From: Liolophura sinensis
Taxonomy: Eukaryota; Mollusca; Polyplacophora; Chitonida; Chitonidae
DNA: 64,000 nucleotides
Direction: 5' to 3'
NCBI RefSeq assembly: GCF_032854445.1
Contig: NW_027017953.1
Location: forward strand, 436,501-500,500
The notes beneath the pieces are model-generated. The model worked only from the letters and a program-made list of their open reading frames with translations, made no database searches and was not told the DNA's origin. The position numbers and the translations under genes were made by a program. Of the stretch, positions 7,410 to 64,000 are shown one piece after another (position 1 is the stretch's first letter; each line of letters opens with the position of its first letter).

Positions 7410-8615
7410 ATGTGATTTGCAGAACCGGATGTGACTCATCTGGCAGTCTGCAGAACAGCATGTCACTCATGTGGCACTCTGTAGGACAGCATGTCACTCA
7501 TGTGGCACTCTGTAGGACAGCATGTCACTCATGTGACATTATGCAGAACAGGATGTGACTCCATCTGGCAGTCTGTAGAACAGGATGTGACTCATCTGGC
7601 AGTCTGCAAAACAGCATGTCACTCATGTGACATTATGCAGAACAGGATGTGACTCATCTGGCAGTCTGTAGAACAGGATGTGACTCATCTGGCAGTCTGC
7701 AAAACAGCATGTCACTCATGTGGCACTCTGTAGGACAGCATGTCACTCATGTGGCACTCTGCAGAGCAGCATGTCACTCACGTGGCACTCTGCAGAGCAG
7801 CATGTCACTCACGTGGCATTATGCAGAACAGGATGTGACTCATCTGGCAGCCTGCAGAACAGCATGTCACTCATGTGGCACACTGTAGGACAGCATGTCA
7901 CTCATGTGGCACTCTGCAGAGCAGCATGTCACTCACGTGGCATTATGCAGAACAGGATGTGACTCATCTGGCAGCCTGCAGAACAGCATGTCACTCATGT
8001 GGCACACTGTAGGACAGCATGTTACTCATGCGGCACTCTGTAGTATAGCATGTCACTCACGTGACATTATGCAGAACAGGATGTGACTCATTCTGGCAGT
8101 CTGCAGAACAGCATGTCACTCATTTGGCACTCTGTAGGACAGCATGTCACTCATGTGGCACTCTGTAGGACAGCATGTCACTCATGTGGCACTCTGCAGA
8201 GCAGCATGTCACCCACGTGGCATTATGCAGAACAGGATGTGACTCATCTGGCAGCCTGCAGAACAGCATGTCACTCATGTGGGCACACTGTAGGACAGCA
8301 TGTTACTCATGCGGCACTCTGCAGAGCAGCATGTCACTCACGTGACATTATGCAGAACAGGATGTGACTCATCTGGCAGTCTGCAGAACAGCATGTCACT
8401 CATGTGGCACTCTGTAGGACAGCATGTCACTCATGTGGCACTCTGCAGAGCAGCATGTCACTCACGTGGCATTATGCAGAACAGGATGTGACTCATCTGG
8501 CAGTCTGTAGAACAGCATGTCACACATGTAGCACTCTGCAGAGCAGCATGTCACTCACGTGGCATTATGCAGAACAGCATGTCACTCACGTGGTACTCTG
8601 TAGAATGTTGGGTGG
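7410..8615. repeat. 31-bp minisatellite, about 38 copies
   Basis: The unit is CAGCATGTCACTCATGTGGC plus ACTCTGTAGGA; a variant carries GGATGTGACTCATCTGGCAG. The two variants alternate in short blocks, giving higher-order periodicity. The 63-94 codon frames inside are by-products. Confidence 0.9.
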
Positions 8616-15074: not shown

Positions 15075-18000
15075 TCATCACCACTGCCGCAGTGGTTTGT
15101 TCGTGCCTCCTCACATCACTCCAGTCACATCCTCACCAACCGCTGCCACAGAGGTTTGTTCTTAGCTCCTCACATCACTCCATTCACGTCCTCACCAACC
15201 GCTGCCACAGAGGTTTGTTCATAGTTCCTCACATCACTCCATTCACGTCCTCACCAACCGCTGCCGCAGTGGTTTGTTCTTAGCTCCTCACATCACTCCA
15301 TTCACGCCCTCGCCAACCGCTGCCACAGAGGTTTGTTCATAGTTCCTCACATCACTCCAGTCACGTCCTCAACAACCGCTGCCACAGAGGTTTGTTCATA
15401 GTTCCTCACATCACTCCATTCACGTCCTCACCAACCGCTGCCGCAGTGGTTTGTTCATAGTTCCTCACATCACTCCATTCACGTCCTCACCAACCGCTGC
15501 CACAGAGGTTTGTTCATAGTTCCTCACATCACTCCATTCACGTCCTCACCAACCGCTGCCACAGTGGTTTGTTCTTAGCTCCTCACATCACTCCATTCAC
15601 GTCCTCGCCAACCGCTGCCACAGTGGTTTGTTCTTAGCTCCTCACATCACTCCATTCACGCCCTCGCCAACCGCTGCCACAGAGGTTTGTTCATAGTTCC
15701 TCACATCGCTCCATTCACGTCCTCACCAACCGCTGCCGCAGTGGTTTGTTTATAGCTCCATACATCACTCCATTCACGTCCTCACCAACCGCTGCCGCAG
15801 TGGTTTGTTCGTACCTCCTCACATCACTCCATTCACGTCCTCACCAACCGCTGCCGCAGTGGTTTGTTCATAGCTCCATACATCACTCCATTCACGTCCT
15901 CACCAACCGCTGCCACAGTGGTTTGTTCTTAGCTCCTCACATCACTCCATTCACGTCCTCACCAACCGCTGCCACAGTGGTTTGTTCATAGTTCCTCACA
16001 TCACTCCATTCACGCCCTCGCCAACCGCTCCCGCAGTGGTTTGTTCGTACCTCCTCACATCACTCCAGTCACATCCTTACCAACCACTGCCACAGTGGTT
16101 TGTTCTTAGCTCCTCACATCACTCCATTCACGTCCTCACCAACCGCTGCCACAGTGGTTTGTTCATAGTTCCGCACATCGCTCCATTCACGTCCTCACCA
16201 ACCGCTGCCACAGTGGTTTGTTCTTATCTCCTCACATCACTCCATTCACGCCCTCGCCAACCGCTGCCACAGAGGTTTGTTCATAGTTCCTCACATCCCT
16301 CCATTCACGTCCTCACCAACCGCTGCCACAGTGGTTTGTTCTTAGCTCCTCACATCGCTCCATTCACGTCCTCACCAACCGCTGCCGCAGTGGTTTGTTC
16401 ATACCTCCTCACATCGCTCCATTCACGTCCTCACCAACCACTGCCGCAGTGGTTTGTTCATAGCTCCTCACATCACTCCATTCACGTCCTCACCAACCGC
16501 TGCCGCAGTGGTTTGTTCATAGCTCCATACATCACTCCATTCACGTCCTCACCAACCGCTGCCACAGAGGTTTGTTCTTAGCTCCTCACATCACTCCAGT
16601 CACATCCTCACCAACCGCTGCCGCAGTGGTTTGTTCATAGCTCCATACATCACTCCATTCACGCCCTCACCAACCGCTGCCACAGTGGTTTGTTCATAGT
16701 TCCTCACATCGCTCCATTCACGTCCTCACCAACCGCTGCCGCAGTGGTTTGTTCATACCTCCTCACATCACTCCATTCACGCCCTCGCCAACCACTGCCG
16801 CAGTGGTTTGTTCATAGCTCCTCACATCACTCCAGTCACGCCCTCGCCAACCACTACCACAGTGGTTTGTTCATACCTCCTCACATCACTCCATTCACGT
16901 CCTCACCAACCGCTGCCACAGTGGTTTGTTCTTAGCTCCTCACATCACTCCATTCATGTCCTCACCAACCGCTGCCACAGTGGTTTGTTCTTAGCTCCTC
17001 ACATCACTCCATTCACGCCCTCGCCAACCGCTGCCACAGAGGTTTGTTCATAGCTCCTCACATCACTCCATTCACGCCCTCGCCAACCGCTGCCACAGAG
17101 GTTTGTTCATAGCTCCTCACATCACTCCATTCACGCCCTCGCCAACCGCTGCCACAGAGGTTTGTTCTTAGCTCCTCACATCACTCCATTCACGTCCTCA
17201 CCAACCGCTGCCGCAGTGGTTTGTTCATACCTCCTCACATCGCTCCATTCACGTCCTCACCAACCACTGCCGCAGTGGTTTGTTCATAGCTCCTCACATC
17301 ACTCCATTCACGTCCTCACCAACTGCTGCCGCAGTGGTTTGTTCATAGCTCCATACATCACTCCATTCACGTCCTCACCAACCGCTGCCGCAGTGGTTTG
17401 TTCTTAGCTCCTCACATCACTCCATTCACGCCCTCGCCAACCGCTGCCACAGAGGTTTGTTCATAGTTCCTCATATCGCTCCATTCACATCCTCACCAAC
17501 CACTACCGCAGTGGTTTGTTCATAGCTCCATACATCGCTCCATTCACGTCCTCACCAACCGCTGCCGCAGTGGTTTGTTCGTACCTCCTCACATCACTCC
17601 AGTCACATCCTCACCAACCGCTGCCACAGTGGTTTGTTCATAGCTCCATACATCACTCCATTCACATCCTCATCAACCGCTGCCACAGTGGTTTGTTCTT
17701 AGCTCCTCACATCACTCCATTCACGTCCTCACCAACCGCTGCCACAGTGGTTTGTTCATACCTCCTCACATCGCTCCATTCACGTCCTCACCAACCGCTG
17801 CCACAGTGGTTTGTTCATACCTCCTCACATCGCTCCATTCACGTCCTCACCAACCGCTGCCGCAGTGGTTTGTTCATAGCTCCATACATCGCTCCATTCA
17901 CGTCCTCACCAACCGCTGCCGCAGTGGTTTGTTCTTAGCTCCATACATCACTCCATTCACGTCCTCACCAACCGCTGCCGCAGTGGTTTGTTCTTAGCTC

Positions 18001-38300: not shown

Positions 38301-41300
38301 TGTGTGTTACACAACAGTGGGAAACAGCAACTGTTATATACCTGTGATGTGTGTTACACAACAGTGGGTAACAGCAACTGTTACATACCTGTGATGTGGG
38401 TAACAGCAACTGTTACATACCTGTGATGTGTGTTACACAACAGTGGGTAACAGCAACTGTTACATACCTGTGATGTGTGTTACACAACAGTGGGTAACAG
38501 CAACTGTTACATACCTGTGACGCGTGCTACACAACAGTGGGCAACAGCAACTGTTATATACTTGTGACGTGTTGTATGCAACAGTGGGCAACAGCAACAG
38601 AATGTGTTTTACAACAGTGGGCAACAGCAACAAAATGTGTTACACAACAGTGGGCAACAGCAACAAAATGTGTTACACAACAGTGGGCAACAGCAACAAA
38701 AAGTGCTACACAACTTTGGGCAACAGCAACAAAATATGCTACACAACAGTGGGCAACAGCAACAAAAATAGAAATCTTTTTGAAGATCTTTCTGGCAATT
38801 TCCTTTTGTGAAAAGAAAAGGATCATCATCAATTTTCATGCAACATTAAAGACAAACACAAACTAAACTTTATCACTGAAAACATTGTCAATAGTGTAAA
38901 TCACATGAAAGGCAGAGTGACTATAACTGATATATAAATGCCACCTTTTGATTATTTTTATTCCTACACTGGAAGCCACTGAGTGTGTGGCTTCAGAACT
39001 AGCCTTGGATTATAAATTTACAGCTTCTACTGCTCTCTCAGTTTATAGTGAACTGTAAATTTAAAGCGTCTACTGCTTTCTTAGTTTATAGTGAACTGTA
39101 AATTTACAGCGTCTACTGCTCTCTTAGTTTGTAGTGGACTGTAAATTTACAGCTTCTACTGTAAATTTCTGGCTTTTACTGCTCTCTCTCAGTTTGTAGT
39201 GAACTGTAAATTTATGGCTTTTATGTTTGTCTTAGTTTATAGTTTACTGCGTCTACTGCTCTCTTAGTTTATAGTGGACTGTAAATTTATGGCTTCTACA
39301 GCTCTCTTAGTTTATAGTGGACTGTAAATTTATGGCTTCTACAGCTCTCTCTCAGTTTATAGTGAACTGTAAATTTATAGCTTCTACTTTTCTCAGTTTA
39401 TAGTGGACTGAAAATTGATAGCTTCTATCGCTCTCAATTTATAGTGGACTGTAAACACCTCACAATGTCACACAGCGTATTCGACAGCAATGACATTGCA
39501 GGATACCAGGTCAGACAGACTGGCAATCTCCAGGTTTATTATCTGTCACACGCCTGTGAAGTGTTACACACCTGTTAAGTGTTACACAACAGTAGGCTCA
39601 CATGCCCTAAATACCTCACAACATCACCACAACCTTACACAGTGTATTCCACAGAGATCAGATTATGGGACTCTGTGTTGGCAGTCCCTTGGTTTTTAGT
39701 GGACTGTAAATTCATAGCTTTTGCTGCTCTCTCAGTTTATATAAAGCGGACTGGAAGTTTATAACTTCTGCCGCTGTCAATTAATGGAAAACAAGTCTTT
39801 TTCAATCCATGAGACAGACTACCATCAGAATTTGTGAGCGTGGTTTTCAATAAACAGATGCAAAGTATTTTTCTTTTTACCAGATAATCCTGAATCTGTT
39901 CCATGATACTACAGCCTGTAGTACAGGTCTAAGTGGGATGTTTTTCCATGTTTTCCAGGGAGTTCTATGTCACTGGCCATGGGTTTGTTCCATGATACTA
40001 CAGGTCTAAGTGGGATGTTTTTCCATGTTTTCCAGGGAGTTCTATGTCACTGGCCATGGGTTTGTTCCATGATACTACAGGTCTAAGTGGGATGTTTTTC
40101 CATGTTTTCCAGGGAGTTCTATGTCACTGGCCATGGGTTTGTTCCATGATACTACAGGTCTAAGTGGGATGTTTTTCCATGTTTTCCAGGGAGTTCTATG
40201 TCACTGGCCATGGGTTTGTCATGTGGGGGTCTCATGGGAATTGGGGCCTATCAGACGTCAGTGGACCCCCGGAATATTTGGCTGTCTTTAGGTAAGTCTG
40301 TATGAAAGTCTGTATAGTCATGGTGCTGGTTCTAAATTAGCATGAAAGCATTTGGTTTGACAAGGAGGACAGGTAAGAGCAGATAGGTTATCATCAGGAC
40401 ACTCAGTGACAGTAATCTGTGAATGGTCTGGGTGTCATGTCTGCTGCTCAAGACAGATTGTTGCCACATAATCAACATATATCACATGCTGATTCAGCTG
40501 TAAACAGATTGTTGTCACATGGTGCAACATATGTAACATGCTGATTCGGCTGTAAGCAGATTGTTGTCACATGGTGCAACGTATGTAACATGCTGATTCA
40601 GCTGTAAACAGATTGTTGTCACATGGTGCAAGATATGTAACATGCTGATTCGGCTGTAAGCAGATTGTTGTCACATGGTGCAACATATGTAACATGCTGA
40701 TTCGGCTGTAAACAGATGGTTGCCACATGGTGCAACATATGTAACATGCTGACTCAGCTGTAAACAGATTGTTGTCACATGGTGCAACATATGTAACATG
40801 CTGATTCGGCTGTAAACAGATTGTTGCCACATGGTGCAACATATGTAACATGCTGATTCGGCTGTAAACAGATTGTTGCCACATAATCAACATATATCAC
40901 ATGCTGATTCAGCTGTAAACAGATGGTTGTCACATGGTGCAACATATATAACATGCTGATTCGGCTGTAAACAGTTTGTTGTCACATGGTGCAACGTATG
41001 TAACATGCTGATTCAGCTGTAAACAGATTGTTGTCAAATGGTGCAACATATGTAACATGCTGATTCGGCTGTAAACAGATTGTTGTCACATGCTGCAACA
41101 TATGTAACATGCTGATTCAGCTGTAAACAGATTGTTGTCACATGGTGCAACGCATGTAACATGCTGATTCAGCTGTAAACAGATTGTTGTCACATGGTGC
41201 AAGATATGTAACATGCTGATTCGGCTGTAAACAGATTGTTGTCACATGGTACAACATATATAACATGCTGATTCAGCTGTAAACAGATTGTTGTCACATG

Positions 41301-49571: not shown

Positions 49572-52500
49572 CTGTTCAAAGGAAATGAAAACTAATAAAA
49601 GTACAACTTCTTCATGAACTGTGCTATGTGCACACTGTTATCAGAACTGTGCTATGTGCACATTGTTATCAGAACTGTGCTGTGTGCACACTGTTATCGG
49701 AACTACATGTATGCTATGTGCACATTGCTATCAGATCTGTGCTACATGCACACTGTTATCAGAACTGTGCTATGTACACACTGTTATCAGAACTGTGCTG
49801 TGTGCACACTGTTATCAGAACTACATGTATGCTATGAGCACATTGCTATCAGATATGTGCTACATGCACACTGTTATCAGAACTGTGCTATGTGCACACT
49901 TATCAGAACTGTGCTATGTGCGCACTGTTATCAGAACTGTGCTGTGTGCACACCGCTATCAGATCTGTGCTATGTGCACATTGCTGCACACAAGCAACCA
50001 TATTTTCTGTTCTAGTCTACCAAGTCAATCCCATGAAGTCATCGATGATCCAGTAAAGGTCATGTCATTTGCTGACTGAATGAATAATCGATTGGGGTTT
50101 AAGTACGAATTTTGTAGACTTCTCTATGAAACTAAATATGAAAAGCACATTCTGCCTTGGATGACATGTCTGCTCAAAACAGCATTAACAATAAGTTAAG
50201 GAAGGCAAACAGACTTCCTACTTCCGATTTTGACCAGATTGCCAAACATCAACATCTCTGTAAATGTGAGATTACAAATACAACACTGTATATAAGCTGA
50301 CTAACATTGAGTAAGTACCTGTGGCAGGTCTTTGCTTTCTCTTCCGTTTAGCTCTGTTAACATATTTCCTGTCTGGTTGCTGATTGGTTACCTTTGATGA
50401 AGGAACCCTGTGTGCTGTCAAATCAGCATCAGACTCACTCTCAGACTGACCTTCCACCAGATCATTTGATCCTGTCCCCACAGAGTTGTCTTTCTTGGAT
50501 TTCTCTTCACTGGCACTCTTAACTGTGGCAGAGTTATCTAGTTTTGATGGAGTTATGGCAACACATGTCAGCCTGAATTTTGTATTGTGTTCACATAAAA
50601 GGCTGCACTGTACATCTGCCTTCTGAAAAACAAACAAAACATCCTGCATCATACACAATATATAATGTTTACAGTCCATGAGTTCAAACTGACTGACACT
50701 GTGACGGTCATTGTATTATATGATGTTTACAGTCCATGAGCTGACACTGTGACAGTCATTGTATTATATGATGTTTACAGTCCATGAGCTCAAACTGACT
50801 GACACTGTGACAGTCATTGTACTATATGATGTTTACAGTCCATGAGCTCACACTGTGACGGTCATTGTATTATATGATGTTTACAGTTCATGAGCTCAAA
50901 CTGATTTAGACTGTGACAGTCATTGTACTATATGATGTTTACAGTCCATGGGCTCAAACTGATTTAGACTGTGACAGTCACCGTACTATATGATGTTTAC
51001 AGTCCATGGTCTCAAACTGATTTAGACTGTGACAGTCATTGTACTATATGATGTTTACAGTCCATGAGCTCAAACTGATTTAGACTGTGACAGTCATTGT
51101 ACTATATGATGTTTACAGTCCATGAGCTCAAACTGATTGTGACTGTGACAGTCATTGTACTATATGATGTTTACAGTCCATGGGCTTAAACTGATTTAGA
51201 CTGTGACAGTCACTGTACTATATGATGTTTACAGTCCATGGGCTCAAACTGATTTAGACTGTGACAGTCATTGTACTATATGATGTTTACAGTCCATGGG
51301 CTCAAACTGATTTAGACTGTGACAGTCATTGTACTATATGATGTTTACAGTCCATGGGATCAAACAGATTTAGACTGTGACAGTCATTGTACTATATGAT
51401 GTTTACAGTCCATGGGCTCAAACTGATTTAGACTGTGACAGTCATTGTACTATATGATGTTTACAGTCCATGGGCTCAAACTGATTTAGACTGTGACAGT
51501 CATTGTACTATATGATGTTTACAGTCCATGGGATCAAACAGATTTAGACTGTGACAGTCATTGTACTATATGATGTTTACAGTCCATGGGGTCAAACAGA
51601 TTTAGACTGTGACAGTCATTGTACTATATGATGTTTACAGTCCATGGTCTCAAACTGATTTAGACTGTGACAGTCATTGTACTATATGATTTTTACAGTC
51701 CATGGGCTCAAACTGATTTAGACTGTGACAGTCATTGTACTATATGATGCACACATACACAAACAACGAGTTCCCATCTGATTAAGACTTTGTCACCTTC
51801 CATTAAAGGCAAAAAACCAATATAGTCATCATCATAACACACACCTTTTTAGATAACATTTTCTGTATGTCATATCAGTTTTTTGCTTGAAAAGAAATTT
51901 AACTGCTATGGATGCCATCAATGACAGAGAAATATGATCCTGTAAACCAATTAATACAAAACCTATCAGGACAGTTGCAAATGACAGAGTCTGGTACTCA
52001 GATGTCATCTTAATCGCAACATTAGACAGGCAAAAGGGCCTTAACACGCCATAACAGATGTAATGACTCTTACCTCATCTGTGTCAATTTCCCACACCTT
52101 TATAAGACCGTCACTGGAGACTGACACCATTAGCTGCTTGTTGTTGTTGTAAGGACTATGCCTGCACCCCAAGCCACGGATTCTGTGAAATAATGGCACA
52201 CAGGTGATAACAGAGTTTCTAGAGGACGGAATGATGATTGGCACGCAGGTGATAACAGAGTTTCTAGAGGACGAAATGATGATTGGCACACAGGTGATAA
52301 CAGAGTTTCTAGAGGACGGAATGATGATTGGCACGCAGGTGATAACACAGTTACTAGAGGACGAAATGATGATTGGCACGCAGGTGATAACAGAGTTTCT
52401 AGAGGACGGAATGATGATTGGCACGCAGGTGATAACAGAGTTTCTAGAGGACGGAATGATGATTGGCACACAGGTGATAACAGAGTTTCTAGAGGACGAA

Positions 52501-55500
52501 ATGATGATTGGCACGCAGGTGATAACAGTGTTTCTAGAGGACGGAATGATGATTGGCACACAGGTGATAACAGAGTTTCTAGAGGACGGAATGATGATTG
52601 GCACGCAGGTGATAACAGAGTTACTAGAGGACGGAATGATGATTGGCACGCGGGTGATAACAGAGTTACTAGAGGACGGAATGATGATTGGCATGCAGGT
52701 GATAACAGTTACTAGAGGATGAAATGATGATTGGCACACAGGTGATAACAGAGTTTCTAGAGGACGAAATGATGATTGGCACGCAGGTGATAGAGTTTCT
52801 AGAGGACGGAATGATGATTGGCACGCAGGTGATAACACAGTTACTAGAGGACGAGATGAGGATTGGCACACAGGTGATAACAGAGTTTCTAGAGGACGGA
52901 ATGATGATTGGCACGCAGGTGATAACAGAGTTTCTAGAGGACGGAATGATGATTGGCACACAGGTGATAACAGAGTTACTAGAGGATGAAATGGTGATTA
53001 GCATGCAGGTGATAACAGAGTTACTAGAGGACAAAATGATGATTGGCACACAGGTGATAACAGAGCCTGTACAGGTGTACTACAGTATAGTTGTCTGCTT
53101 ATTGTCACCAAGGCTCTATGAACAGTGAGAATGGTGGAGTGAGTGAGTGAGTGCTTGGGGTTTAACGTCGTACTCAACAATTTTTGAGAATGGTGGAAGT
53201 CAAGTGACCTTCAATAAACGTTACACTACAAACAGCAACACCAGTATAGTTGTCTGCTTATTGTCACCAAGGCTAAACCCTACACTACAAACAGCAACAC
53301 CAGTATAGTTGTCTGCTTATTGTCCCCAAGGCTCCGTGTACAGTGAGAGTGGTGGAAATCAAGTGACCTTCAATAAACTTTACACTACAAACAGCAAAAC
53401 CAGCAAAGTTGTCTGCTTATTGTCACCAAGGCTCCGTGTACAGTGAGAGTGGTGGAAATCAAGTGACCTTCAATAAACTTTACACTACAAACAGCAACAC
53501 CAGTATAGTTGTCTGCTTATTGTCACCAAGGCTCTATGAACAGTGAGAATGGTGGAAGTCAAGTGACCTTCAATAAACGTTACACTACAAACAGCAACAC
53601 CAGGGTAGTTGTCTGCTTATTGTCACCAAGGCTAAACCCTACACTACAAACAGCAACACCAGTATAGTTGTCTGCTTATTGTCACCAAGGCTCCGTGTAC
53701 AGTGAGAGTGGTGGAAATCAAGTGACCTTCAATAAACTTTACACTACAAACAGCAACACCAGTATAGTTGTCTGCTTATTGTCACCAAGGCTCCGTGTAC
53801 AGTGAGAATGGTGGAAGTCAAGTGACCTTCAATAAACGTTACACTACAAACAGCAACACCAGTATAGTTGTCTGCTTATTGTCACCAAGGCTAAACCCTA
53901 CACTACAAACAGCAACACCAGTATAGTTGTCTGCTTATTGTCACCAAGGCTCCGTGTACAGTGAGAGTGGTGGAAATCAAGTGACCTTCAATAAACTTTA
54001 CACTACAAACAGCAAACCAGCAAAGTTGTCTGCTTATTGTCACCAAGGCTCCGTGTACAGTGAGAGTGGTGGAAATCAAGTGACCTTCAATAAACTTTAC
54101 ACTACAAACAGCAACACCAGTATAGTTGTCTGCTTATTGTCACCAAGGCTCTATGAACAGTGAGAATGGTGGAAGTCAAGTCACCTTCAATAAACGTTAC
54201 ACTACAAACAGCAAAATCAGCAAAGTTGTCTGCTGACTGTCACCAAGGCTCCATGTACAGTGAGAATGGTGGAAATCATGTGGCCTTCAATAAACATTAC
54301 ACTACAAACAGCAACACCAGGGTAGTTGTCTGCTTATTGTCACCAAGGCTCTATGAACAGTGAGAATGGTGGAAGTCAAGTGACCTTCAATAAATGCTAC
54401 ACTACAAACAGCAAAACCAGCAAAGTTGTCTGCTGACTGTCACCAAGGCTCTATGAACAGTGAGAATGGTGGAAGTCAAGTGACCTTCAATAAACATTAC
54501 ACTACAAACAGCAAAACCAGCAAAGTTGTCTGCTTATTGTCCCCAAGGCTCCATGTACAGTGAGAGTGGTGGAAATCAAGTGACCTTCAATAAACACTAC
54601 ACTACAAACAGCAACACCAGGGTAGTTGTCTGCTTATTGTCACCAAGGCTCCATGTACAGTGAGAGTGGTGGAAATCAAGTGGCCTTCAATAAACGTTAC
54701 ACTGCAAACAGCAAAACCAGCATAGTTGTCTGCTTATTGTCCCCAAGGCTCCATGTACAGTGAGAGTGGTGGAAATCAAGTGACCTTCAATAAACATTAC
54801 ACTACAAACAGCAACACCAGGGTAGTTGTCTGCTTATTGTCACCAAGGCTCCATGTACAGTGAGAGTGGTGGAAATCAAGTGACCTTCAATAAATGCTAC
54901 ACTACAAACAGCAAAACCAGCAAAGTTGTCTGCTGACTGTCACCAAGGCTCTATGAACAGTGAGAATGGTGGAAGTCAAGTGACCTTCAATAAACATTAC
55001 ACTACAAACAGCAAAACCAGCAAAGTTGTCTGCTTATTGTCCCCAAGGCTCCATGTACAGTGAGAGTGGTGGAAATCAAGTGACCTTCAATAAACACTAC
55101 ACTACAAACAGCAACACCAGGGTAGTTGTCTGCTTATTGTCACCAAGGCTCCGTGTACAGTGAGAGTGGTGGAAATCAAGTGGCCTTCAATAAACGTTAC
55201 ACTGCAAACAGCAAAACCAGCATAGTTGTCTGCTTATTGTCACCAAGGCTCCATGTACAGTGAGAGTGGTGGAAATCAAGTGACCTTCAATAAACATTAC
55301 ACTACAAACAGCAACACCAGGGTAGTTGTCTGCTTATTGTCACCAAGGCTCCATGTACAGTGAGAGTGGTGGAAATCAAGTGACCTTCAATAAACGTTAC
55401 ACTACAAACAGCAAAACCAGTATAGTTGTCTGCTTATTGTCACCAAGGCTCCGTGTACAGTGAGAGTGGTGGAAATCAAGTGGCCTTCAATAAACATTAC

Positions 55501-58500
55501 ACTACAAACAGCAAAACCAGCATAGTTGTCTGCTTATTGTCACCAAGGCTCCATGTACAGTGAGAGTGGTGGAAATCAAGTGGCCTTCAATAAACATTAC
55601 ACTACAAACAGCAACACCAGGGTAGTTGTCTGCTTATTGTCACCAAGGCTCCATGTACAGTGAGAGTGGTGGAAATCAAGTGACCTTCAATAAACGTTAC
55701 ACTACAAACAGCAAAACCAGTATAGTTGTCTGCTTATTGTCACCAAGGCTCCGTGTACAGTGAGAGTGGTAGAAATCAAGTGGCCTTCAATAAACATTAC
55801 ACTACAAACAGCAAAACCAGCAAAGTTGTCTGCTTGTTGTCACCAAGGCTCCGTGTACAGTGAGAGTGGTGGAAATCAACTGGCCTTCAATAAACATTAC
55901 ACTACAAACAGCAAAACCAGCAAAGTTGTCTGCTTATTGTCACCAAGGCTCCGTGTACAGTGAGAGTGGTGGAAATCAAGTGGCCTTCAATAAACATTAC
56001 ACTACAAACAGCAACACCAGTATAGTTGTCTGCTTATTGTCCCCAAGGCTCCATGTACAGTGAGAGTGGTGGAAATCAAGTGACCTTCAATAAACGTTAC
56101 ACTACAAACAGCAAAACCAGCAAAGTTGTCTGCTTATTGTCACCAAGGCTCTATGAACAGTGAGAATGGTGGAAATCAAGTGACCTTCAATAAACGCTAC
56201 ACTACAAACAGCAAAACCAGCAAAGTTGTCTGCTTATTGTCCCCAAGGCTCCATGTACAGTGAGAGTGGTGGAAATCAAGTGGCCTTCAATAAACGTTTA
56301 CACTACAAACAGCAAAACCAGGGTAGTTGTCTGCTTTTGTCACCAAGGCTCTGTGTACAGTGAGAGTGGTGGAAATCAAGTGGCCTTCAATAAACATTAC
56401 ACTACAAACAGCAACACCAGGGTAGTTGTCTGCTTATTGTCACCAAGGCTCCGTGTACAGTGAGAGTGGTGGAAATCAAGTGGCCTTCAATAAACATTAC
56501 ACTACAAACAGCAACACCAGGGTAGTTGTCTGCTTATTGTCACCAGGGCTCCGTGTACAGTGAGAGTGGTGGAAATCAAGTGACCTTCAATAAACATTAC
56601 ACTACAAACAGCAACACCAGGGTAATTGTCTGCTTATTGTCACCAAGGCTCCGTGTACAGTGAGAGTGGTGGAAATCAAGTGACCTTCAATAAACATTAC
56701 ACTACAAACAGCAACACCAGGGTAGTTGTCTGCTTATTGTCACCAGGGCTCCGTGTACCAGTGAGAGTGGTGGAAATCAAGTGACCTTCAATAAACATTA
56801 CACTACAAACAGCAACACCAGGGTAATTGTCTGCTTATTGTCACCAAGGCTCCGTGTACAGTGAGAGTGGTGGAAATCAAGTGACCTTCAATAAACATTA
56901 CACTACAAACAGCAACACCAGGGTAGTTGTCTGCTTATTGTCACCAAGGCTCCGTGTACAGTGAGAGTGGTGGAAATCAAGTGACCTTCAATAAACATTA
57001 CACTACAAACAGCAACACCAGGGTAGTTGTCTGCTTATTGTCACCAAGGCTCCATGTACAGTGAGAGTGGTGGAAATCAAGTGACCTTCAATAAACGCTA
57101 CACTACAAACAGCAACACCAGGGTAGTTGTCTGCTTATTGTCCCCAAGGCTCCATGTACAGTGAGAGTGGTGGAAATCAAGTGGCCTTCAATAAACATTA
57201 CACTACAAACAGCAACACCAGGGTAGTTGTCTGCTTATTGTCCCCAAGGCTCCATGTACAGTGAGAGTGGTGGAAATCAAGTGACCTTCAATAAACGCTA
57301 CACTACAAACAGCAACACCAGGGTAGTTGTCTGCTTATTGTCACCAAGGCTCCGTGTACAGTGAGAGTGGTGGAAATCAAGTGACCTTCAATAAACGTTA
57401 CACTACAAACAGCAAAACCAGCATAGTTGTCTGCTTATTGTCCCCAAGGCTCCATGTACAGTGAGAGTGGTGGAAATCATGTGACCTTCAATAAACGTTA
57501 CACTACAAACAGCAAAACCAGTATAGTTGTCTGCTTATTGTCACCAAAGCTCCGTGTACAGTGAGAATGGTGGAAATCAAGTGACCTTCAATAAACGCTA
57601 CACTACAAACAGCAACACCAGGGTAGTTGTCTGCTTATTGTCACCAAGGCTCCGTGTACAGTGAGAGTGGTGGAAATCAAGTGACCTTCAATAAACGTTA
57701 CACTACAAACAGCAAAACCAGCATAGTTGTCTGCTTATTGTCACCAAGGCTCCATGTACAGTGAGAGTGGTGGAAATCATGTGACCTTCAATAAACGTTA
57801 CACTACAAACAGCAAAACCAGTATAGTTGTCTGCTTATTGTCACCAAAGCTCCGTGTACAGTGAGAATGGTGGAAATCAAGTGACCTTAAATAAACGCTA
57901 CACTACAAACAGCAACACCAGTATAGTTGTCTGCTTATTGTCACCAAGGCTTCGTGTACAGTGAAGATGGTGGAAGTCAAGTGACCTTCAATAAATATTA
58001 GAATGAGGGGAGCAGGATTTCATCCTTAGACACTGATTGGTTTTGGGCTAACCAACGCTTTACCCAAATGAGACATCCGCCCTCATTTTCATCATCGTGG
58101 TCTGGGTTGCCACAACGCATGTGCTGTCTCAGTGAATCACCATGAAAACACCAGCAATGGACACCCACCAACACACATGTCGCCTCAGTGAATCATCATG
58201 ACAACACCAGCAATGACACCCACCAACACAACTCGGCAATAACATGCACCGACACAACTGCTGTCTCAGTGAATCATGATGACAACACCAGCAATGATGC
58301 CCATCAACACAACTCAGCAATGACACCCACCAACACAACTGCTGTCTCAGTGAATCAAGATGACAACACCAGCAATGACAACCACCAACACATGTGCTGT
58401 CTCAGTGAATCATGATGACAACACCAGCAATGAAACCAACCAACACAACTGCTGTCTCAGTGAATCATTATGACAACACCAGCAATGACACCCACCAACA

Positions 58501-61500
58501 CAACTGCTGTCTCAGTGAATCATCATGACAACACCAGCAATGACACCCACTACCACAACTGCTGTCTCAGTGAATCATCATGACAACACCAGCAATGACA
58601 CCCACCAACACATGTGCTGTCTCAGTGAATCATCATGACAACACCAGCAATGACACCCACTACCACAACTGCTGTCTCAGTGAATCATCATGACAACACC
58701 AGCAATGACACCCACTACCACAACTGCTGTCTCAGTGAATCATCATGACACCAGCAATGACACCCACCAACATAACTGCTGTCTCAGTGAATCATGATGA
58801 CAACACCAGCAATGACACCCACCAACACAACTGCTGTCTCAGTGAATCATCATGACAACACCAGCACACGTGCTATCTCAGTGAATCATGATGACAACGC
58901 CAGCAATGACACCCACCAACACATGTGCTGTCTCAGTGAATCATGATGACAACACCAGCAATGACACCCACCAACACAATTGCTGTCTCAGTGAATCATC
59001 ATGACAACACCAGCACACGTGCTATCTCAGTGAATCATGATGACAACGCCAGCAATGACACCCACCAACACATGTGCTGTCTCAGTGAATCATGATGACA
59101 ACACCAGCAATGACACCCACCAACACAATTGCTGTCTCAGTGAACCATGATGAGAACACCAGCAATGGCACCCACCAACAGATGTGCTGCCTCAGTGAAT
59201 CATGATGACAACACCAGCAATAACACCCACCAACAGAACTGCTGTCTCAGTGAATCATGATGACAACACCAGCAATGACACCCACCACCACACGTGCCGT
59301 CTCCGTGAATCATGATGACAAGACAAGGAATAACACCGACTAACACAAATGCTCCCTCAGTGAATTATCACAATGACGACACCAACCAACACATATGCTC
59401 ACATTAGCCTTAGTTATCCCAAGAAAGATAACAAGGTCAAGGAAATCAATTTAGATCTAAATCTGTTCTCCACCAAAGAAAACTATCACATGCAACATGA
59501 AATCAGATACAATGAAGAAAACTGTTCAAGGCAACATGAAATCAGGTAAGTGGGAAAGTACTGTCAAAGGCAACATGAAATCAGGTAAGTGGAAAAATAC
59601 TGTCAAAGGCAACATGAAATCAAGTAAGCAGGAACATACTGTCAAAGGCAACATGAAATCAGGTAAGCGGAAAATACTGTCAAAGGCAATATGAAATCTG
59701 GTAAGAAAGAAAATACTGTCAAAGGCAACATGAAATCAGGTAAGCGGGAAAATAAAGTCAAAGGCAACATGAAATCAGGTAAGCGAGAAAATACTGTCAA
59801 AGGCTACATGAAATCTGGTAACAGGGAAAATACTGTCAAAGGTAACATGAAATCAGGTAAGTGGGGAAGTACTGTCAAAGGCTACATGAAATCAGGTAAG
59901 CGGGAACATACTGTCAAAGGCAACATGAAATCAGGTAAGCGGGAAAATAAAGTCAAAGGCAACATGAAATCAGGTAAGCGAGAAAATACTGTCAAAGGCT
60001 ACATGAAATCTGGTAACAGGGAAAATACTGTCAAAGGTAACATGAAATCAGGTAAGTGGGGAAGTACTGTCAAAGGCTACATGAAATCAGGTAAGCGGGA
60101 ACATACTGTCAAAGGCAACATGAAATCAGGTAAGCGGGAAAATACTGTCAAAGGCAACATGAAATCAGGTAAGCAGGAACATACTCTCAAAGGCAATATG
60201 GGATCAGGTAAGCAGGAAAATACTGTCAAAGGCAACATGAAATCTGGTGAGAGGGAAAATACTGTCAAAGGCAACATGAAATCAGGTAAGCGGGAACATA
60301 CTGTCAAAGGCAACATGAAATCAGGTAAGCGAAAAAAATCCTGTCAAACGCTACATGAAATCTGGTAACAGGGAAAATACTGTCAAAGGTAACATGAAAT
60401 CAGGTAAGTGGGGAAGTACTGTCAAAGGCAACATGAAATCAGGTAAGCAGGAAAATACTGTCAAAGGCAACATGAAATCTGGTAAGCAGGAAGATACTAT
60501 CAAAGGCAACATGAAATCAGGTAAGTGGGAAAGTACTGTCAAAGGCAACATGAAATCAGGTAAGTGGAAAAATACTGTCAAAGGCAACATGAAATCAGGT
60601 AAGCGGGAACATACTGTCAAAGGCAACATGAAATCAGGTAAGCAGGAAAATACTGTCAAAGGCAACATGAAATCTGGTAAGCAGGAAAATACTGTCAAAG
60701 GTAACATGAAATCTGGTAAGCAGGAACATACTATCAAAGGCAACATGAAATCAGGTAAGTGGGAAAGTACTATCAAAGGCAATATGAAATCAGGTAAGTG
60801 GAAAAATACTGTCAAAGGCAACATGAAATCAGGTAAGCGGGAACATACTGTCAAAGGCAACATGAAATCAGGTAAGCGGGAACATACTGTCAAAGGCAAC
60901 ATGAAATCAGGTAAGCGAAAAAAATCCTGTCAAACGCTACATGAAATCTGGTAACAGGGAAAATACTGTCAAAGGCAACATGAAATCAGGTAAGTGGGGA
61001 AGTACTGTCAAAGGCAACATGAAATCAGGTAAGCAGGAAAATACTGTCAAAGGCAACATGAAATCTGGTAAGCAGGAACATACTATCAAAGGCAACATGA
61101 AATCAGGTAAGTGGGAAAGTACTGTCAAAGGCAACATGAAATCAGGTAAGTGGAAAAATACTGTCAAAGGCAACATGAAATCAGGTAAGCGGGAACATAC
61201 TGTCAAAGGCAACATGAAATCAGGTAAGCAGGAAAATACTGTCAAAGGCAACATGAAATCTGGTAAGCAGGAAAATACTGTCAAAGGTAACATGAAATCT
61301 GGTAAGCAGGAACATACTATCAAAGGCAACATGAAATCAGGTAAGTGGGAAAGTACTGTCAAAGGCAACATGAAATCAGGTAAGCGGAAAAATACTGTCA
61401 AAGGCAACATGAAATCAGGTAAGCGGGAACATACTGTCAAAGGCAACATGAAATCAGGTAAGCAGGAAAATACTGTCAAAGGCAACATGAAATCAGGTTA

Positions 61501-62748
61501 GCGGGAACATACTGTCAAAGGCAACATGAAATCAGGTAAGCGGGAACATACTGTCAAAGGCAACATGAAATCAGGTAAGCAGGAAAATACTGTCAAAGGC
61601 AACATGAAATCTGGTAAGAGGGAAAGTACTGTCAAAGGCAACATGAAATCAGGTAAGCGGGAACATACTGTCAAAGGCAACATGAAATTAGGTAAGAAAG
61701 AAAATACTGTCAAAGGCAACATGATTTATTTATTTATTTGATTGGTGTTTTATGCCGTACTCAAGAATACTTCACTTATACAACGGCGGCCAGCATTAAT
61801 GTGGGTGGAAACCGGGCAGAGCCCGGGGGAAATCCATGACCATCCGCAGGTTGCTGGCAGACCTTCCCACGTATGGCCGGAGAGGAAGCCAGCATGAGCT
61901 GGACTTGAACTCACAGCGGCCGCCTTGGTGAGAGACTCCTGGGTCATTGTGCTGCGCTAGCGCGCTAACCAACTGAGCCAAGGAGGCCCCAAGGCAACAT
62001 GAAAACAGGTAAGCAGGAAAATACTGTCAAAGGCAACATGAAATCAGGTAAGCGGGAAAATACTGTCAAAGGTAACATGAAATCAGGTAAGCGGGAACAT
62101 AAAGTCAAAGGCAACATGAAATCAGGTAAGCGGGAAAATACTGTCAAAGGTAACATGAAATCAGGTAAGCAGGAAAATACTGTCAAAGGCAACATGAAAT
62201 CAGTTAAGCGGGAACATACTGTCAAAGGCAACATGAAATCAGGTAAGCGGGAACATAAAGTCAAAGGCAACATGAAATCAGGTAAGCGAGAACATACTGT
62301 CAAAGGCAACATGAAATCAGGTAAGCGGGAACATACTGTCAAAGGCAACATGAAACCAGGTAAGCGGGAAAATACTGTCAAAGGTAACATGAAATCAGAT
62401 AAGTGGGAAAATACTGTCAAAGGCAACATGAAATCAGGTAAGCGAGAACATACTGTCAAAGGCAACATGAAATCAGGTATGTGGGAGATTCAAGTTTAAC
62501 CCTGACTTCTGTCTCACATACTGGCAACCTTAATCCTCAAATAATCAGTTATTTACCAGCAAAATAATAAACCCATTTTACTGCCGAATTCATAACATAA
62601 AACTGTGAAGCCATCAACACTTGACCAGAGCAGAATGCCTACAAGCTTACCTTACAGTGTTGGACTTCACACAAGACAGGTGTTTGTTGTCCTTGATGTT
62701 GTGAATAAAGATTTCGCCACCTTCTCCACCATACGCTATCACCTCATT
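49504..62748 (-). CDS. PAK1IP1: PAK1IP1 / MAK11 WD40 protein, last four exons (5' part outside window)
   Basis: Minus-strand exons 62651-62748, 52074-52182, 50319-50622 and 49504-49571 join in frame (junction phases 2, 0, 1). The product carries the end of a WD40 propeller followed by a basic tail: NEVIAYGGEGGEIFIHN, then SSDGLIKVWEID in the last blade, then SLLCEHNTKFRLTCVAI, an acidic/Ser linker, KRKRKQRP and a final KKKRRNPKKVS. This order follows human PAK1IP1, including V-SASSDGFIKMW and SLLCEINTNARLTCL. By family knowledge the protein (yeast Mak11) acts in nucleolar 60S ribosome assembly and binds PAK1 in vertebrates. The N-terminal exons must lie beyond 64000. The 10.5-kb intron between the first two exons is about 95% tandem repeat. 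Confidence 0.93.
49608..49990. repeat. 28-bp minisatellite, about 14 copies (PAK1IP1 last intron)
   Basis: The unit is TGTGCTATGTGCACACTGTT plus ATCAGAAC. Three-unit blocks ending in ACTACATGTATGCTATG recur. It lies about 40 bases upstream of the terminal-exon acceptor in transcription order. Confidence 0.93.
50319..50622 (-). CDS. PAK1IP1: PAK1IP1 penultimate exon
   Basis: Acceptor (minus) GTTTTTCAG, donor CACAG|GTACTT. The 101 codons plus one base start with KADVQCSLLCEHNTKFRLTC (end of the propeller) and pass into an acidic/Ser-rich linker and a basic cluster NRAKRKRKQRP. Confidence 0.92.
50660..51750. repeat. 58-bp minisatellite, about 19 copies (PAK1IP1 intron)
   Basis: The unit contains ATGATGTTTACAGTCCATGG, GCTCAAACTGATTTAGACTG and TGACAGTCATTGTACTAT. 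It starts about 40 bases upstream of the penultimate-exon acceptor (in transcription order). Units nearest the exon are the most variable in length. Confidence 0.95.
52074..52182 (-). CDS. PAK1IP1: PAK1IP1 last-WD40-blade exon
   Basis: Acceptor (minus) ATTATTTCACAG, donor GATGAG|GTAAGA. One base plus 36 codons encode MVSVSSDGLIKVWEIDTDE, a clear WD40 strand set. A 45-bp array starts about 15 bases upstream of the acceptor and is open in the exon's frame. Confidence 0.93.
52195..53060. repeat. 45-bp minisatellite, about 19 copies, abutting a PAK1IP1 acceptor
   Basis: The unit is GGCACACAGGTGATAACAGA plus GTTTCTAGAGGACGGAATGATGATT, 15 codons. On minus the frame (52041-52961) reads SSRNSVITCVPIII repeats directly into the PAK1IP1 exon frame. 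Confidence 0.96.
53062..57990. repeat. 100-bp minisatellite, about 49 copies (PAK1IP1 intron)
   Basis: The unit includes TTGTCTGCTTATTGTCACCA, GGCTCCGTGTACAGTGAGAG, AAATCAAGTGACCTTCAATA and CACTACAAACAGCAACACCA. From about 53930 to 57990 the period is almost strictly 100 bp; the first kilobase has shorter derivatives. Each unit carries CAATAAAC, thus an AATAAA hexamer on +. A five-unit block at 54361-54860 recurs 500 bp later. Confidence 0.97.
53139..53184 (+). mobile_element. 46-bp insertion with 13-bp target duplication (SINE 3' tail fragment)
   Basis: GTGAGTGAGTGAGTGCTTGG followed by GGTTTAACGTCGTACTCAAC and a T run interrupts one unit of the 100-bp array. TGAGAATGGTGGA occurs on both sides (53126-53138 and 53185-53197), while it occurs once per unit elsewhere. 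The inserted text resembles the 3' end of a common molluscan dispersed repeat; only the tail is present. Confidence 0.7.
58100..59400. repeat. 55-bp minisatellite, about 22 copies (PAK1IP1 intron)
   Basis: The unit contains CAACACAACTGCTGTCTCAG, TGAATCATGATGACAACACC and AGCAATGACACCCAC. Shortened units with ACACGTGCTATCTCAGTG recur in a block at about 58860 and 59010. Confidence 0.95.
59497..62480. repeat. 39-bp minisatellite, about 69 copies (PAK1IP1 intron)
   Basis: The unit is GTCAAAGGCAACATGAAATC plus AGGTAAGCGGGAAAATACT. It is 13 codons long, so Lys-rich frames run on + and Leu/Pro-rich frames on minus for 60-225 codons. Nearly every unit carries CAGGTAAG on +, a consensus 5' splice site, antisense to PAK1IP1. 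Blocks of 5 units (offset 195 bp near 59735/59930) and about 15 units (offset 586 bp, marked by GCGAAAAAAATCC at 60328 and 60914) recur. A SINE splits it at 61725-61990. Confidence 0.97.
61725..61990 (-). mobile_element. tRNA-derived SINE inserted in the 39-bp array, minus strand
   Basis: Read on minus: GGGGCCTCCTTGGCTCAGTT head with A-box, B-box GAGTTCAAGTCC, body ATTAATGCTGGCCGCCG, tail GTACGGCATAAAACACCAAT plus (AAAT)n. The flanking 12-bp AAGGCAACATGA at 61713-61724 and 61991-62002 is the target duplication, taken from the repeat unit itself. Same strand as PAK1IP1. Confidence 0.95.
62651..62748 (-). CDS. PAK1IP1: PAK1IP1 WD40 exon (most 5' exon in window)
   Basis: Acceptor (minus) CTGTTTACAG|AATGAGG; donor TGTAAG|GTAAGC. 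The 98 bases encode NEVIAYGGEGGEIFIHN and on to SNTV, ending in phase 2. The acceptor and first 11 exon bases are repeated about 30 times immediately upstream in transcription. Confidence 0.9.
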
Positions 62749-63695
62749 CTGTAAACATACAAAAAGATAAATCACCTCATTCTGTAAACAGACAAAACAT
62801 AAATCACCTCATTCTGTAAACAGACAAAACGCAAGTCACCTCATTCTGTAAACAGACAAAACATAAATCACCTCATTCTGCAAACAGACCAAACATAGAT
62901 CACCTCATTCTGTAAGCAGACAAAACACAAATTACTTCAATCAGTACACAGACAAAATATAAATCACCTCATTCTGTAAACAGACAAAACACAAATCACC
63001 TCATTCTGTAAACATACAAAACATAAATCACCTCATTCTGTAAACAGACAAAACATAAATCACCTCCTTCTGTACACAGAGAAAACATAAATCACCTCAT
63101 TCTGTAAACAGACAAAACACAAATCACCTCATTCTGCAAACAGACAAAACATAAATCACGTCATTCTGTAAACATACAAAAAGATAAATCACCTCATTCT
63201 GTAAACAGACAAAACATAAATCACCTCATTCTGTAAACAGACAAAACACAAGTCACCTCATTCTGTAAACAGACAAAACATAAATCACCTCATTCTGCAA
63301 ACAGACAAAACATAGATCACCTCATTCTGTAAGCAGACAAAACACAAATTACTTCAATTAGTACACAGACAAAATATAAATCACCTCATTCTGTAAACAT
63401 ACAAAACATAAATCACCTCATTCTGTAAACAGACAAAACATGAATCACCTTCTGTACACAGAGAAAACATAAATCACCTCATTCTGTAAACAGACAAAAC
63501 ACAAATCACCTCACTCTGCAAACAGACAAAACATAAATCACCTCATTCTGTAAACAGACAAATCACAAGTCACCTCATTCTGTAAACAGACAAAACACAA
63601 ATCACCTCATTCTGCAAACAGTCAAAACATAAATCACCTCTTCTGTAAACATACCAAACATAAATCACCTCATTCCGTAAACAGAAAAAACACAC
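62740..63695 (-). repeat. 32-bp array of PAK1IP1 splice-acceptor copies, about 30 units
   Basis: On + the unit is CATTCTGTAAACAGACAAAA plus CATAAATCACCT. On minus each unit reads as a pyrimidine-rich stretch, TGTCTGTTTACAG, then AATGAGGTGAT, which is exactly the acceptor and first 11 bases of the PAK1IP1 exon at 62748. A block at about 62770-63110 recurs at about 63190-63500. Confidence 0.96.
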
Positions 63696-64000
63696 ACGTG
63701 GGGAAAGAAAGTACAGCGAGAACAGTTAGGACATCATGCTACAATAACTGTGGCTCTGTCAACTATAATCTGATGAATTTGATTTGAAAGGTGTACCTAA
63801 CTAAGGTAAATTGACCAGAGACAACCAATTTGCAATGAATTTGCAAATATAAACAAAAAACTGAACATATAAATGTACATGTTAGGAGACAACTTTACAT
63901 GTCCAGCATTCATAAAGGTCCTTGATCGATCATTCAGTTTGCGCAGAGGGTATGCAGATTTAAAAAAAAGTGTGATCGATCACTCAGTTTGTGCAGATAT
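63696..64000. other. PAK1IP1 intron, unique-looking end of window
   Basis: No exon was found on minus. A short duplication, GATCGATCAYTCAGTTTG, occurs at about 63924 and 63972. Confidence 0.5.

Follow-up and report, generated by a model that had tools for sequence, protein, structure and literature searches.

The 3' splice site of exon 7 of the PAK1IP1 gene of the chiton Liolophura sinensis is embedded in a minisatellite of about 30 units, each of which carries a copy of that splice site. We analyzed a 64,000-nucleotide stretch of contig NW_027017953.1 (C14:436501-500500, hereafter the window) together with the assembled genome to which it belongs (609,464,459 bases in 632 contigs), and the gene model was completed with 20 kb of sequence past the window, from C14:500001. 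We think it probable that the array is what has been called a 'mirage', a minisatellite that has grown across an exon–intron junction and is tolerated since exon context decides which site is used. The direct observations behind this reading are the arrays themselves, the exon model, the strength of the decoy sites on a crude matrix, the frames in which they would be read, the occurrence of similar arrays in other genes and the lack of junction enrichment in a sample of those genes.

PAK1IP1 was modeled as nine exons on the minus strand, with 414 codons including the stop; all phases join, all donors are GT and all acceptors are AG (Table 1). Residues 8–320 of the predicted protein align at 37% identity (E 2e-76) to a sequence taken to be that of human PAK1IP1, and the exon 6/7 join is ungapped in this alignment. 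Co-linear WD40 similarity is present over the propeller (Pfam WD40, 4.3e-20). Searches of PDB sequences returned generic WD40 proteins and did not single out PAK1IP1, so the name, which had also been proposed in an earlier note on this DNA, rests on the alignment with the presumed human sequence. The locus is present as one copy in the assembly. A genome DNA search with joined exons 1–8 (891 bases) found no processed gene copy that would record the junctions in use, in that all 64 of the matches listed fall within PAK1IP1; this search scores only the best candidates, and the short copies from exons 3 and 7 lie below its reporting level. The matches include 10 additional copies of the end of exon 4 and 43 of the end of exon 5, all within introns.

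In the sense of the gene, the unit of the exon 7 array reads TTATGTTTTGTCTGTTTACAG/AATGAGGTGAT, with the slash marking the junction: 21 bases of intron 6, including the acceptor, are followed by the first 11 bases of exon 7, and 11 bp of the exon fall within the array. A 20-base junction motif, allowing up to three mismatches, occurs 26 times in the window and always inside this array; 100 dinucleotide shuffles give an expectation of 0.01 occurrences. Exon 7 itself forms the last unit, and its real acceptor is the most distal site of the array. The earlier note had described an acceptor amplified about 30 times in tandem, with the complete acceptor and 11 exon bases in each unit and the true exon at the end of the series; the Tandem Repeats Finder (TRF) result, the unit sequence and the in-phase joining of exon 7 to exons 6 and 8 agree with that description in every part. 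Besides the expected multiples of 32, matching the array to itself gives peaks at shifts of 417 and 670, which suggests that units have been copied together in blocks (∼13 units for the 417-bp shift); the 417-bp block duplication points to turnover of the array. In a first genome search, the only other place matching the exon 7 array region was C5:7196779-7197008, with 68% identity over ∼220 bases (E 2.3e-7).

The decoys are locally hard to distinguish from the real acceptor. Among the 28 upstream units that could be scored, 26 keep the AG, and a 29th at the far end reads CGG and lies too near the end of the array for matrix scoring. On a crude matrix of general consensus values, not trained on this species, 14 of the 28 equal or exceed the score of the real exon 7 acceptor. 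The decoy at −417 is preceded by the same 82 bases as the real site (Table 1), and these bases therefore cannot decide site choice; it departs from the real exon at exon base 6. Taken together, the canonical dinucleotides, the scores and the 82 identical upstream bases indicate that the deciding information is most likely downstream or positional.

Use of a decoy would usually be costly. Of the 26 canonical decoys, 25 lead to a stop 2–24 codons past the exon 6 junction, as expected from the earlier claim that a wrong copy would break the protein. That claim does not extend to the nearest decoy, which is 33 bp upstream, stays in frame because the last unit is 33 bp long, meets no stop and would add 11 residues if used.

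These observations can be accommodated by a simple model. In a genome with minisatellite-rich introns, the array would have begun with local tandem duplication and then been extended by exchange, in which whole blocks of units were copied as well. In exon definition, splice sites are recognized across the exon. Exon 7 is flanked by introns of 4.4 kb (before) and 10.4 kb (after), and recognition across the exon is therefore a natural explanation for site choice. Only the real acceptor is followed by the full body of exon 7 and a strong donor 98 bases downstream; a decoy is followed by 11 exon bases and then by more array, and splicing to the most remote decoys would extend the exon to as much as about one kilobase. 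Occasional decoy products would mostly encounter an early stop and be removed by nonsense-mediated decay.

The earlier note, confined to exon 7, missed four more junction arrays in PAK1IP1, similar arrays in unrelated genes and the existing name for the phenomenon in lancelets. Five of the 16 PAK1IP1 junctions sit in arrays of their own copies (Table 1). The five arrays hold 110 scored decoys, 102 of them canonical, and use of a canonical decoy would truncate the protein in 91 cases; the 11 exceptions comprise the ten exon 8 decoys closest to the real site and a single exon 7 decoy. In the exon 8 array the AG is kept in all 18 scored decoys, and the nearest ten are in frame without a stop. Over this range each 45-bp unit taken into the exon would add 15 residues, and acceptor choice at exon 8 could in this way extend the protein. 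An array at the exon 6 donor (45 bp × 16) was left uncounted, its edge lying 8 bp inside the intron. Arrays account for 83% of PAK1IP1 intron sequence and for 53% of the window.

Table 1. Features of the PAK1IP1 locus. Positions are those of the window unless a contig is named; a slash marks an exon–intron junction.
Feature	Position	Strand	Details
PAK1IP1 exons 6 to 1	C14:503606-510988, beyond window	−	nine-exon model
PAK1IP1 exon 7	62651..62748	−	98 bp; phase 0 in, phase 2 out; joins in frame in nine-exon model; genome DNA match to joined exons 1–8
Exon 7 splice sites		−	real acceptor TGTTTACAG/AATGAG; donor TAAG/GTAAGC, 98 bases on
PAK1IP1 exon 8	52074..52218	−	nine-exon model
PAK1IP1 exon 9, to stop	50272..50622	−	nine-exon model
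Exon 3 acceptor array	beyond window		59-bp unit, 12 copies; 5 canonical decoys
Exon 4 donor array	beyond window		138-bp unit, 11 copies; 10 canonical decoys
Exon 5 donor array	beyond window		50-bp unit, 44 copies; 43 canonical decoys
Exon 7 acceptor array (32-bp minisatellite)	62738..63692	−	TRF: 29.9 copies, 87% matches, score 1472; 955 bp long; 26 canonical decoys
Last unit of exon 7 array, between real acceptor and nearest decoy	62749..62781	−	33 bp
100 nt upstream (gene sense) of decoy at −417	63166..63265	−	compared with 100 nt upstream of real site: 99/100 match, 82 exact next to site
Exon 8 acceptor array	52194..53065	−	45-bp unit, 19.5 copies; 20 bp of intron 7 with acceptor and first 25 bp of exon 8
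48-bp array of intron 6, start	63923..64000	−	continues past window to window-scale 65078
39-bp array, intron 7	59492..62486	−	38.3 copies of 78-bp form; no PAK1IP1 junction spanned
100-bp and higher-order array, intron 7	53274..58000	−	no PAK1IP1 junction spanned
58-bp array, intron 8	50659..51749	−	separated from exon 9 by 36 bp; no junction array

Junction arrays are also found outside PAK1IP1. Junctions were surveyed in two other gene families. Of 50 listed chaperonin (PF00118) matches 30 were used, and of 132 listed kinesin (PF00225) matches 28, with 1.5 kb on each side; further listed matches inside these pieces were added by hand. The sample consists of 37 merged pieces (159,818 bases, 14.6% array) containing 88 listed exon matches (39 chaperonin and 49 kinesin), from which two pieces with three matches were taken as intronless and dropped. 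Junctions were placed by a simple matrix, and the removal of 10 of the 170 edges, those with a score under −1, left 160. Eight of the 160 are spanned by arrays, and seven of these hold up on reading of the sequences, the kinesin 27-bp array being the least certain acceptor among the seven. When matches with internal stops are excluded, the count is 5 of 119. The script scored one chaperonin acceptor as lying in an array (41 bp) that, with the acceptor placed by eye, extends only 1 bp into the exon; this array was kept among the 12 arrays used for decoy counts. A 60-bp array at a second chaperonin donor was counted as spanning, in that another TRF row covers the junction, and stands outside the decoy counts, its own row ending short of the junction.

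Array coverage in this sample has no peak at the 160 junctions. It is 5.0% at the junction and increases into the intron to 10.3% at 101–200 bp, 14.6% at 201–400 bp and 20.6% at 401–800 bp, with 19.7% at 801–1200 bp. Coverage thus falls towards exons, from which it follows that the arrays do not seek junctions: they grow everywhere and are sparser near exons, a pattern that selection against damage would produce. The high proportion in PAK1IP1 is accounted for by its introns, which are nearly all array.

Across the 12 arrays, the canonical dinucleotide is intact in 179 of 209 decoys, compared with 182.7 expected at the array-average rate of change, and decoy dinucleotides are thus neither purged nor kept overall. 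In the exon-derived parts of six donor arrays, changes number 73 at codon position 1, 63 at position 2 and 37 at position 3; the third position is not in excess, and nothing therefore indicates that these stretches evolve under coding constraint. The earlier note left two outcomes, choice of the most distal acceptor or tolerance of heavy mis-splicing. Two indirect results, the 82 identical bases at the −417 decoy and the decay of decoy AG and GT near the array average, lead us to lean towards accurate acceptor choice, as far as this can be read from sequence.

Several observations weigh against a reading in which exon context decides and decoys are simply tolerated. Six of the 11 exon 3 decoys read TG. 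At a kinesin donor with a 125-bp array (C6:81505176), the real site is GT, but all three decoy donors are GG. In the kinesin 27-bp array, 29 of 43 decoys are intact (14 broken), with 32.0 expected. The broken decoys in these arrays may indicate that decoys are locally harmful, and silencing of decoys is a possible explanation for the GG sites. The changes at the three codon positions are uneven (chi-square p 0.003) and lowest at position 3, which we put down to inherited variants and not to selection. Since the units share ancestry, such counts are not independent and the neutral tests are weak. Finally, the near decoys at exon 7 would yield exons of 131–227 nt, still a normal size for exon definition, and exon length alone therefore cannot exclude them. 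For these near decoys, either exon sequence must matter as well or usage must be low.

In a different account, mis-splicing is tolerated: decoys would be used at a real rate, most products would be destroyed at the cost of less mRNA, and in-frame decoys would give rise to minor isoforms with 11 additional residues at exon 7 or 15 per unit at exon 8. We regard this as unlikely, though it has points in its favor. The decoys do match real sites locally in strength, the nearest exon 7 decoy and the nearest 10 of 18 exon 8 decoys are in frame without a stop, and in 2 of the 12 arrays most decoys are broken. However, frequent harmful use should purge decoys, and the loss of AG and GT is close to the array average over the 12 arrays. 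Regular splicing is also reported for the lancelet cases (PMC3087553, PMC3902484).

It is also conceivable, and in our view very doubtful, that the array has been retained for a regulatory role, in which its decoy acceptors would slow or poison PAK1IP1 splicing under some conditions. The presence of 102 canonical decoys in one gene, 91 of them truncating, would suit such a role, and a Caenorhabditis elegans minisatellite is described as over-represented near alternative splicing regions (PMC4039745). Yet arrays of this kind also occur in unrelated chaperonin and kinesin genes and are depleted, not enriched, near junctions in our sample, and the decoys bear no sign of conservation, with no excess retention of AG or GT.

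Assembly error is an unlikely source of the array, and we give almost no credence to the idea that the assembler lengthened or miscopied a short array. Assembly of arrays is difficult, but this assembly was made from high-fidelity (HiFi) reads with a mean length of 8,347 bp at 14X (PMC11068029); this length far exceeds the 955-bp array, which should therefore be spanned by reads. In addition, the units differ among themselves, and junction arrays are present at several separate loci. The idea that splice junctions actively attract array growth, say through breakage linked to junctions or through duplication seeded by splice-site motifs, is scarcely credible and was rejected: 5 of 16 PAK1IP1 junctions are spanned, but with 83% of intron sequence in arrays this is not above chance, and coverage in the survey drops steadily to the junction from its value at 401–800 bp.

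The interpretation we favor, that of a mirage tolerated under exon context, has a direct precedent. Tandem repeats across exon–intron boundaries were given this name in lancelet Adh3 and are also described in the globin genes BflGb6 and BflGb9, in troponin C and in PGBD5; according to these reports, splicing proceeds normally in their presence, their length differs among haplotypes, and they open a path by which new introns could arise. Their units range from 10–72 bp (Adh3) to 150–160 bp (globin BflGb6) (PMC3087553, PMC3902484). The chiton array has the same structure, with a unit that holds the end of the host intron and the end of the exon, and with AG or GT in many decoys (26/28 at exon 7 and 179/209 over the 12 arrays); as in the lancelet cases, boundary-spanning repeats occur at 5' or 3' splice sites. 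The host is a mollusc, not a cephalochordate, and we treat the taxon as part of the history of the term, not of its definition. The scale is different. Chiton arrays have up to 44 copies, compared with 3 and 6 in the two BflGb6 haplotypes of the lancelet, and the chiton provides five junctions in one gene together with a frequency estimated from 160 junctions in two other families. The chiton evidence is genome sequence, whereas the lancelet reports include RNA and polymorphism evidence; by analogy with lancelets, chiton PAK1IP1 would be spliced normally despite its array.

Two other systems are related less closely. Human internal tandem repeats at exon–intron boundaries in segmental duplications may form novel introns via cryptic splice sites (PMC2812944). 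Like the chiton arrays, they are minisatellites at an exon–intron boundary, and they alter gene structure. However, they average 4 units of 30 bp and involve recent paralogs and new introns, whereas the chiton has long arrays in apparently old housekeeping genes with an apparently unchanged exon structure. The CeRep25B repeat of C. elegans is likewise a minisatellite linked with splicing, but it carries motifs and is found in excess around regions of alternative splicing, and its abstract mentions no host splice junction within the unit (PMC4039745). We found no report of junction-spanning repeat arrays in molluscs in the parts of the open-licence literature available to us, where the name 'mirage' appeared only for lancelets. 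The accessible text of a Conus paper (PMC3862624) describes ordinary GT/AG junctions and intronic microsatellites with no repeated junctions, and its sole use of 'minisatellite' is in the title of a reference. The finding is thus a known phenomenon, extended to a new phylum and a larger scale.

Further repeats were noted around the locus. A tRNA-derived stretch resembling a short interspersed element (SINE) lies at 61801–61990 inside the 39-bp array of intron 7; an Rfam scan of the window gave no matches at the gathering score, for this stretch or any other. The stretch appears to resemble the molluscan MESO SINEs. Upstream of PAK1IP1 there is a 74-bp array of 74 copies (window-scale 77566–82996, C14:514066-519496). 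The region from 1568 to 58000 of the window is rich in additional minisatellites, among them 38 × 31 bp at 7418, 52 × 59 bp at 15080 and 47 × 52 bp at 40453. On a separate contig, C99, seven COX1 matches at steps of ∼15.5 kb represent head-to-tail copies of the mitochondrial genome; the steps exceed the length of a separate 15,209-bp contig, C632, and the C99 copies are either an assembly concatemer or a nuclear copy. The gene order of the mitochondrial contig, on which Pfam was used to check six reading frames, is the ancestral molluscan one, as retained in chitons. It speaks against a lancelet origin of the DNA, which the presence of mirage-like arrays had first suggested. Searches with a lancelet-derived fluorescent protein and with the GFP family gave no match, but neither had a positive control and they carry little weight.

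The arrays of PAK1IP1 amount to a natural experiment on discrimination by the spliceosome, in which an acceptor is repeated nearly 30 times, one copy has 82 identical upstream bases, and it is mainly exon context and position that differ; in this one chiton gene, the splicing machinery faces ∼100 look-alike sites. The mirage phenomenon is also carried to a second, distant animal phylum, with a first rate of 7 or 8 of 160 junctions in two gene families. A broader proposal, which we hold tentatively and doubt slightly more than we believe, is that in chitons, and perhaps in molluscs more widely, about 1 in 20 splice junctions lies inside a minisatellite of its own copies, and that single housekeeping genes can contain ∼100 decoys locally equal to the real sites. 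If this is true, exon context would govern splicing in these animals almost completely, with the arrays acting as a standing supply of new introns and of in-frame exon extensions such as those at exon 8.

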